This document shows, piece by piece, positions 17,069 to 18,856 of a stretch of DNA of 64,000 bases; position 1 is the stretch's first letter, and each line of letters begins with the position of its first letter. This stretch comes from Ponticaulis koreensis DSM 19734 (lineage in GTDB: Bacteria; Pseudomonadota; Alphaproteobacteria; Caulobacterales; Hyphomonadaceae): positions 372,001-436,000 of the forward strand of contig NZ_ATVJ01000001.1 of the NCBI RefSeq assembly GCF_000420665.1. Direction: 5' to 3'. Under the pieces are notes generated by a model. It ran no database searches, had not been told where the DNA came from, and saw only the letters and a list, made by a program, of their open reading frames with translations. The translations under genes were made by a program, and so were the position numbers.

Positions 17069-18856
17069 TTATGCAGCCTCAGCGGCCATTTTCTGAGCCT
17101 TAGCCATAACTTCGTCCATGTTGCCGCACATGTAGAAAGCTTGCTCAGGAATGTGGTCATACTCGCCAGCGATGAGGCCTTTGAAGCCTTTGACGGTGTC
17201 TTCGAGTTTAACCTGAACACCTGGGGAACCGGTGAAGACTTCAGCAACGTCGAACGGTTGAGACAGGAAGCGCTCAACTTTACGAGCACGTGCAACAACC
17301 AGTTTGTCTTCTTCAGAGAGCTCGTCCATGCCGAGGATGGCGATAATGTCCTGAAGCTCTTTGTACTTCTGAAGGATAGACTGAACGCCACGCGCCACTT
17401 CGTAGTGCTCCTGACCAACAACCAGCGGGTCAAGAATACGAGAGGAAGAGTCGAGCGGGTCAACAGCCGGGTAGATACCTTTTTCAGCAATAGAGCGGTT
17501 AAGAACCGTTGTCGCATCGAGGTGGGCAAACGATGTCGCAGGCGCAGGGTCTGTCAGGTCGTCCGCTGGAACGTATACGGCCTGAATAGACGTAATAGAA
17601 CCTTTAGTCGTCGACGTAATACGCTCCTGCAGGCCACCCATGTCGGTTGCCAGTGTCGGCTGGTAGCCCACAGCAGAAGGAATACGACCGAGAAGCGCTG
17701 ACACTTCAGCACCGGCCTGTGTGAAGCGGAAGATGTTGTCGACGAAGAACAGAACGTCTTTGCCTTCTTCATCACGGAAGTACTCAGCCTGAGACAGACC
17801 TGTCAGAGCAACACGAGCACGCGCGCCTGGAGGCTCGTTCATCTGACCGTATACGAGCGCAACGCGGCTCTCGCCTTCAAGGTTGATAACGCCAGCTTCC
17901 TGCATCTCGTGGTAAAGGTCGTTACCTTCACGGGTACGCTCGCCAACCCCAGCGAATACAGAATAACCGCCGAAAAGCTTCGCGATGTTGTTGATCAGCT
18001 CCTGAATGAGAACTGTTTTACCAACGCCCGCACCGCCGAACAGACCAACTTTACCACCACGTGCGTACGGGCAGAGAAGGTCGATAACTTTAATACCCGT
18101 TACGAGAACTTCTGCAGATGTTGACTGGTCAACAAACTCAGGTGCTGGCTGGTGGATCGCACGACGCATGTCAGTTGCAATGTCACCGCGCTCGTCGATT
18201 GGCTCGCCAACAACGTTCATGATGCGGCCGAGTGTTGCCGGGCCGACCGGTACAGAGATCGGTGTACCTGTGTCAGAGACTGGCTGGCCGCGAACGAGAC
18301 CCTCTGTAGAGTCCATAGCGATTGTGCGAACTGTGCTCTCACCGAGGTGTTGAGCAACTTCGAGAACCAGACGGTTGCCGTTATTATCAGTTTCGAGAGC
18401 GTTCAGAATATCAGGCAGCTTGCCTTCGAATTCCACGTCGACAACAGCGCCGATAACCTGGCTGACGCGACCGGTTGCGGAGGTGCTCATGGATGACCCC
18501 TTTTTATTGGACGGTTTAGTATCTTTAGTTGTTTTTGGAGCCGCTGCTGTAGCGGCTGTTTGAGCGGGTGCAGCTGAGGCTGCGGCAGTTTTTTTCGGTG
18601 CGGCTTTTTTTGCAGCAGGCTTGGCAGCCGCTTTTTTCGCTTCAGGCTTACAGGCACCACATGGCGCTGTATCCTTTTGCTTCAGCGCTTTCGCCGCTTT
18701 ATCTGCTTCCGCAAATGCTTCAAACGGACCGTGCCATTTGTCATCATCGTTAGTCTGGTCGCCACCGACGCCCTGACCATTATTACAATAACGGCAGTCC
18801 GCGCTGTGAATACGAGCGCGTTTATTGCCGAAATTTTCGTAAATCCAGAAGCTCAT
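17069..18856 (-). CDS. atpD: ATP synthase F1 subunit beta with extra N-terminal Cys-rich domain
   Basis: Residues 123-595 are a complete catalytic beta subunit: [16 protein letters not shown]-loop, [30 protein letters not shown] and FFVDNIFRF. Before it, residues 1-70 form a separate small domain with H17, CRYC (21-24), WHGPF (41-45) and CGAC (66-69), a likely zinc site. An Ala/Lys/Pro linker (about 72-120) joins them. Such linkers are known on alphaproteobacterial AtpD; the Cys domain is not usual. No stop interrupts the 122 extra codons. Both the ATG at 18856 (AGAGAGGAC and AGGACA upstream) and the internal ATG at 18490 (AAAAGGGG upstream) have ribosome sites, so two forms are possible. Confidence 0.93.

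Follow-up and report, generated by a model that had tools for sequence, protein, structure and literature searches.

Much of one bacterial family, the Hyphomonadaceae, bears an additional conserved Cys/His domain that would sit at the crown end of the ATP synthase beta subunit, which is among the most conserved proteins known and whose crown end is usually regarded as fixed. As judged from sequence, this module is fused to AtpD through an in-frame linker, is under purifying selection, is followed by a preserved internal start, and has been repeatedly lost or regained and, in one lineage, apparently exchanged; translation of both a long and a short beta, metal binding by the module, its position on F1 and a partner for it are inferred. 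We propose, as the explanation that is probably correct, that a captured module on a linker, with the internal start kept, gives two forms of beta and acts as a tethered domain that binds an accessory partner. The retained start would let the cell vary the number of module-bearing beta subunits per F1, and the fusion offers an entry to a domain family, so far uncharacterised, with members in several phyla. The role of the module is directly testable in cultured marine bacteria, because it is present in some close relatives, absent from others and represented by a different allele in others still.

The locus

The window, by which we mean the whole 64,000-nucleotide stretch of Ponticaulis koreensis DSM 19734 that was analysed, contains atpD as one frame with an ATG start and no internal stop (Table 1). 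It is the sole beta copy in its own genome (one match, E <= 1e-50), and directly upstream lie the gamma and alpha genes, which we take to be atpG and atpA by their protein sequences; 21 bases separate the atpG stop from the atpD start. A sequence-only reading of this DNA had counted 122 extra codons, and 595 less 473 residues is indeed 122; it had also listed H17, C21-x2-C24, W41-H-G-P-F45 and C66-x2-C69, all of which are at those residues. Its description of a distinct module fused to beta is borne out as well. The NCBIfam atpD model (TIGR01039) scores 828.7 bits against a curated cut-off of 462.85 across the whole model (positions 2-462), and the match covers residues 128-590 only. Residues 123-595 are an ordinary F-type beta, including all nucleotide-binding domains, whereas the 122 additional N-terminal codons of the window AtpD carry a module that is predicted to fold. 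Among solved structures the best match by E-value was 5cdf/5dn6, from Paracoccus denitrificans (PMC6597759), and none of the 48 listed solved sequences matched before residue 85 of the window AtpD.

Table 1. Features at the fused atpD locus, in window coordinates.
Feature	Position	Strand	Basis
atpD, entire frame, long beta form (595 aa)	17069..18856	-	ORF reading, residue check, TIGR01039 match
N-terminal module, residues 1-73 (H17 C21 C24 W41 C66 C69)	18638..18856	-	Sequence, AlphaFold2, dN/dS
Ala/Lys/Pro-rich linker, residues 74-122	18491..18637	-	Sequence, length variation, dN/dS
Upstream ribosome-binding region, long form	18865..18877	-	Duplex energy -6.6 kcal/mol
Internal ribosome-binding site AAAAAGGGG, short form	18497..18505	-	Duplex energy -7.3 kcal/mol
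Canonical beta core (473 aa); probable short form from internal ATG 18490	17069..18490	-	
Terminator-like imperfect G+C-rich inverted repeat, then T run, directly 3' of atpD	17005..17040	-	By eye
atpG (gamma)	18878..19786	-	ORF
atpA (alpha)	19835..21379	-	ORF; context

The terminator-like repeat is a reading by eye and is absent from the list given by a terminator scan. The epsilon gene atpC (PF02823) lies about 1.6 kb from atpD (window 15065-17068), and the interval holds a GH19-like gene on the opposite strand (15436-16374; 21.2 bits, below the cut-off of 25.5) as well as a gene for a small protein. Among relatives, a downstream atpC motif was seen at 2 of the 13 loci with the beta end motif (19 were given, 6 of them without that motif), these 13 holding less than 2 kb beyond atpD; it follows atpD by 96 bases in L134 and by about 1.7 kb in L135.

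The module and its family

Seventeen positions of the module are invariant in the 39 fused genes of the family, namely W4, R13, R15, H17, C21, R22, Y23, C24, W41, H42, G43, A51, D62, C66, G67, C69 and K70. Over all pairs used (0.02 < dS < 1.5; 278 of 741 for the module, 401 of 741 for the linker and 625 of 703 for the core, the core set omitting L061 because of its gap), dN/dS was 0.178 for the module, 0.425 for the linker and 0.076 for the core, with module values of 0.06-0.14 within genera. These ratios indicate that the module is under purifying selection. AlphaFold2 predicts it to be a compact beta-beta-loop-beta-alpha-beta unit (mean pLDDT 87.7, pTM 0.77), in a model without metal where the loop at about residues 31-40 averages pLDDT 65. 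A model of the full-length protein (pLDDT 41.3, 17 sequences) left the beta core unfolded and is uninformative for docking.

A fold search with the module gave no match at E <= 0.001 in PDB or BFVD, the best hits, to LarE (PDB, E 3.6) and to a viral entry (E 0.28), both being non-significant. Compared with Pfam, NCBIfam, PHROGs, PADLOC and PDB sequences, the window module reached the cut-off of no family, and matches to collagen IV in the PDB (E 0.053 and 0.17) were weak and taken as chance. The only recurrent signal was to DUF6233 (PF19746), a family of unknown function, for which the window module scores 23.0 bits, below the curated cut-off of 27.6. That cut-off was passed by 1 of the 31 members scanned singly, window included, and then just (L110, a fused Henriciella sp., 27.7 against 27.6 bits). 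DUF6233 is matched at E <= 1 by 22 of 33 aligned module members, and both module ends are in register with it, profile positions 1-25 aligning to residues 4-24 of the Ponticaulis module L130 and 32-56 to residues 49-73 of the window module; none of the stand-alone members scanned matches it at E <= 0.01.

In an alignment of 33 fused and stand-alone sequences, Y6, H17, C21, Y23, C24, N25, G27, G29, W41 and G43 are invariant. C66-x2-C69 is found in all 39 fused genes, CxC takes its place in the stand-alone L144 and L146-L148, and the aligned C66 is missing in L143; as C69 is not universal among relatives, a fixed five-ligand metal site is not established. The spacing of the ligands resembles that of the Ada metal-binding domain and of related zinc domains of the type H/C-x3-C...C-x2-C, and the window module gave no Pfam match to the Ada domain up to E 10 and no fold match to it at E <= 0.001. 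With its conserved ligands, the module is probably zinc-binding. It makes up a separate family of small proteins, whose members stand alone in several phyla or are joined to IS1-like transposases. A probable zinc site is reported in subunit a of the Pseudomonas enzyme, a different subunit and place (PMC12796488).

Taxonomic range

The fusion was found in at least 39 of the 102 Hyphomonadaceae genomes with a beta match (105 searched), which excludes the assembly frameshift between the two parts that the sequence-only reading had raised against itself, and with it assembly error as the source of the fusion. These 39 comprise 37 genomes matched from residue 1, G160, which was matched in two pieces across an assembly gap, and G331, which was recognised by reading its sequence; the figure is a lower bound because a divergent module may escape a local match, as in G331, where the alignment started no earlier than residue 70. 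A beta match without a recognised fusion was obtained in 63 family genomes, of which 23 were read; some of the others are contig fragments.

All fusions found lie within this family. A module search at the level of the order (299 genomes) gave 38 matches, of which 28 lay at the N-terminus of AtpD, every one of these in the Hyphomonadaceae, and a profile search of 385 genomes of the class gave five other matches, in frames of 77-454 codons, none of them an AtpD frame. When beta was searched in 136 other genomes of the class, none matched before residue 39, with G478 and G489 being fragments that start inside beta, and with a measure that can miss a divergent module, as for G331. Scanning 84,980 species with a single pattern returned 40 loci with relatives of the module, 28 running into AtpD, all in the Hyphomonadaceae (Ponticaulis, Henriciella and Hyphomonas among the names), and 12 stand-alone; the small free-standing proteins with the same pattern to which the sequence-only reading had alluded thus exist. 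L110 and L136, the latter ending just after the beta start, were counted as fused there from the printed sequence, and L136, which ends inside the gene, was left out of the other counts. Ponticaulis and Henriciella are both members of the Hyphomonadaceae, and a Ponticaulis MAG record (PBNO01000002) carries a module 99% identical to that of the window. Between them, the profile search of 385 class genomes and the pattern scan of 84,980 species found no fusion outside the family. At the level of the phylum a profile search of 398 genomes gave 8 matches, 3 of them fused (the window's own, G011 and G016), and the stand-alone form is therefore rare and scattered.

The open full-text literature, searched by title and start of abstract and so excluding subscription journals, held nothing on this fusion. 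The architecture is real and conserved, and it is new as far as that literature goes, although its absence from print is not thereby established.

The linker and its start site

The linker takes 18 different lengths among the 39 fused genes, from 32 to 75 codons by the definition used in our script, all of them in frame. It had been likened to an Ala/Lys/Pro linker on other alphaproteobacterial AtpD, and this likeness was not borne out in our sample, where a comparable linker occurs in 0 of 26 class-wide beta frames (from 29 loci, L149-L177, of which 26 yielded a beta frame; genera beyond this sample may differ).

Within this variable linker, the stretch around the internal start is the best preserved part. 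The internal ATG of the window (18490-18488) encodes Met123, is preceded by AAAAAGGGGTCATCC and, as had been claimed, has a ribosome site of its own; the ATG is kept in 39 of 39 fused genes. In many unfused Hyphomonas, atpD begins ...GCTCCAAAGGAGACGACCCGC-ATG, and the element of this ordinary start also stands in the non-Ponticaulis fused genes, which read it in frame, mostly as A-P-K-E-T-(P/T)-(R/S)-M. AAGGAG stands at the same spacing in 32 of 32 non-Ponticaulis fused genes, and AAAGGGG in 7 of 7 from Ponticaulis.

Because Lys and Glu each have two codons, the silent positions of this element are informative. In the 32 non-Ponticaulis genes the start-site Lys codon is AAG 32 times and the Glu codon GAG 32 times, against 142 of 294 and 16 of 61, respectively, elsewhere in the linkers of all 39. 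Across the same 32 genes the codon is fixed in 0 of 36 invariant K/E columns of core and module (the nearest two have one deviant each) and in 13 of 122 two-fold columns overall; the 32 genes are related, so that these counts are not independent, and the 36 comparison columns share the same genes and history. The anti-Shine-Dalgarno duplex energy at the internal ATG has a median of -8.5 kcal/mol (weakest -7.3), compared with a median of -1.9 (strongest -5.8) at 415 other in-frame AUGs of the core and a median of -8.2 (range -12.1 to -4.0) at the upstream start; the internal start is the stronger in 23 of the 39 genes and the upstream start in 16.

There is, in short, a second in-frame start with its own ribosome site that is preserved at silent positions, and we conclude from this pattern that selection maintains two starts in one frame. 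The internal start could also have been kept through too little time or through bias, and the codon comparison argues against this. Dual initiation, giving a long and a short beta, is the best reading of the preserved start, a prediction that these sequence data support well, and the mixture of long and short beta that had been suggested earlier is likely, as the internal start is preserved together with its ribosome site.

Turnover of the module

On a tree of beta core and gamma (62 rows, L087 being without a gamma sequence), the fused state changes at least eight times, and six of these changes are forced by well supported branches. The unfused genomes G085, G302, G195 and G299 sit singly beside or within fused groups, and three fused genomes are nested in mostly unfused Hyphomonas. 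This distribution indicates that the module has been repeatedly lost or regained. In G085, 70 bases lie between atpG and the start of atpD and the start-site element is still there, so that loss of the module with the start kept would give a normal gene again. No relics of a lost module were seen by eye in 22 intergenic regions before unfused atpD (of 23 unfused loci). The origin of the fusion may be single or multiple, eight being the fewest changes and one gain followed by losses requiring about nine by hand count.

In the lineage of the window, a Henriciella-like allele apparently took the place of the earlier module. DNA identity between the window and G160 is 96.3% over gamma and 92.4% over the readable 5' core, against 64.3% over the module, where 44 of 71 residues agree in protein; L037, L039 and L046 (g3, Henriciella-coded) and L050 (g2, Hyphomonas-coded) each agree with the window module at 59 of 71 residues. 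Holding the modules of the window, G284 and G160 together was rejected (AU p 0.0012), this group being taken from the beta-gamma tree, although tested after the module tree was seen. Holding all seven Ponticaulis modules together was not rejected (AU p 0.401), and therefore the claim of exchange rests on the G160 comparison, with more doubt attached to donor and direction than to the replacement itself. These tests omitted four long-branch rows (L065, L066, L067 and L081). In G160 the 5' core, too, has diverged further than the 3' core (dS 0.31 against 0.16). An apparent 66-residue insertion in the AtpD of G160 (L061) proved to be a run of N, that is, an assembly gap.

Free-standing and transposase-borne relatives

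The 12 stand-alone frames have 73-121 codons and come from Zavarzinia, Sphingomonas, Marinicaulis, Pararhizobium, Bradyrhizobium and other Alphaproteobacteria, and, beyond that class, from Chloroflexi (including Dehalococcoidia), Planctomycetales and an unclassified bacterium. This stand-alone family, with members such as those of Zavarzinia (L137), Sphingomonas (L139), Chloroflexi (L138) and Planctomycetales (L144), is 31-46% identical to the window module, with which it has in common the pattern Y-x-N/D...H-x3-C-x2-C-N-x-G-x-G...W-x-G; unlike the window module its members are free of AtpD, and some end in CxC. The module is also found at the C-terminus of three IS1-like transposases (L069-L071, genus g9, presumably Brevundimonas), with W, H, C, C, W, C and C in register. 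The carrier is transposase-like: DDE_Tnp_IS1 is matched by L070 exactly at its cut-off (24.1 bits), by L069 below it and by L071 not at all, and the NCBIfam IS1 model stays below its cut-off in all three. In L068 and L074 the module is C-terminal on another protein, presumably a GIY-YIG nuclease by its looks, although L068 has no Pfam match. No viral or phage relatives of the module were found. Of 72,556 plasmid records two gave partial matches (47.6% and 40.9% identity over 56% and 59% of the query), and on reading both frames are broken by stops, so these were rejected.

Genes of the type listed by PADLOC lie within about 1.2 kb of the stand-alone module at three of the four loci scanned, namely a PDC-S11 nuclease (L147), an OLD/AriA-like ATPase (L148) and a type II-like methyltransferase (L140), with none in the neighbourhood of L141; the neighbours were picked after inspection. 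At L147 (761-2361) the module is about 1 kb from the candidate defence nuclease PDC-S11 (427 bits), which is itself adjoined by a GIY_YIG_2 protein. At L141 (3732-4669, a Marinicaulis MAG) the stand-alone module is followed by a DUF7662 gene and by one that we take to be PIN-type.

Discussion

We hypothesise that a free-standing domain, probably zinc-binding, was captured between atpG and atpD in an ancestor of the Hyphomonadaceae and joined to atpD in frame via a variable, probably flexible linker, the ancestral atpD ribosome site and ATG being retained inside the new frame. One gene would then give two forms of beta by dual translation initiation, a long one with the module and the canonical short one, and both would be built into F1, with zero to three modules tethered on the crown side, away from the membrane. 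A second beta gene at E <= 1e-50 is absent from the fused genomes other than G145 and G026, which have a beta-like copy about 50% identical, and long and short beta would therefore mix in F1. The F1 crown is made up of the N-terminal domains of alpha and beta (PMC6597759), so that a module on such a linker would be expected to hang at that end. There it may bind an accessory partner, either protein or nucleic acid, as a tethered domain and be dispensable for catalysis, which would explain its loss and exchange while the beta core stays; the variable linker, the turnover and the replacement favour such a tethered domain rather than an integral piece of the motor. The transposase and nuclease-like carriers, and three of the four stand-alone neighbourhoods, are a hint of nucleic acid or conflict biology. 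A wider statement is doubtful and we make it tentatively: an essential ATP synthase subunit would carry an exchangeable binding domain, with its copies per F1 set by two starts of one gene; drawn from an accessory pool linked to mobile elements, the domain would be gained, lost and replaced by other alleles on an unchanged enzyme, and might serve as a tether to a partner or a guard in a genetic conflict. The sequence-only interpretation, taken as a whole, is partly supported.

It is unlikely that the long form alone is made, with the internal start an ancestral leftover and all three beta subunits of every F1 carrying the module. The long frame is intact in every fused gene and has a good upstream ribosome site (median -8.2), the stronger start in 16 of 39, as that reading would have it, but neither Shine-Dalgarno codon varies at its silent position across the 32 non-Ponticaulis genes, whereas none of the 36 K/E columns is fixed, and the start stretch is the best preserved in an otherwise variable linker. 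Chance in-frame fusion of a functionless segment, tolerated because beta N-termini accept extensions, would agree with the repeated absence of the module within the family and is nevertheless very improbable, given a module dN/dS of 0.178 with invariant Cys/His against 0.425 in the linker.

That an abundant essential protein carries here a conflict-related domain, directed for instance at phage or mobile elements, strikes us as improbable. The module itself has no PADLOC match, phage or viral relatives were not found, and the neighbours were picked after inspection and lack a random-locus control, yet the stand-alone relatives are scattered, three of four scanned loci have PADLOC-type neighbours, some relatives are fused to IS1-like transposases, and the module is subject to loss and allele exchange. 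We likewise think it improbable that the module regulates F1 directly, as a brake on delta or at the crown that responds to metal or thiols, beside zeta: a place on the catalytic subunit and conserved Cys/His would suit a brake, whereas repeated loss or regain, exchange with little change in the beta core, a long and variable linker and relatives joined to unrelated proteins would not. Two forms of beta with a tethered, partner-binding module remain our preferred reading.

The usual regulator, zeta, is the alphaproteobacterial inhibitor of ATP synthase, and it is present in 101 of 105 family genomes, that of the window included, and in 37 of the 39 fused ones, the two others (G329 and G300) being incomplete assemblies. 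Replacement of zeta by the module is thereby ruled out, any brake formed by the module would be additional, and nothing indicates a particular regulatory role for the module. A second match to the zeta family occurs in six of the seven Ponticaulis genomes, including the window's own (G000 C2:548668-549430), those listed being weak, and three g5 genomes have a clear second zeta.
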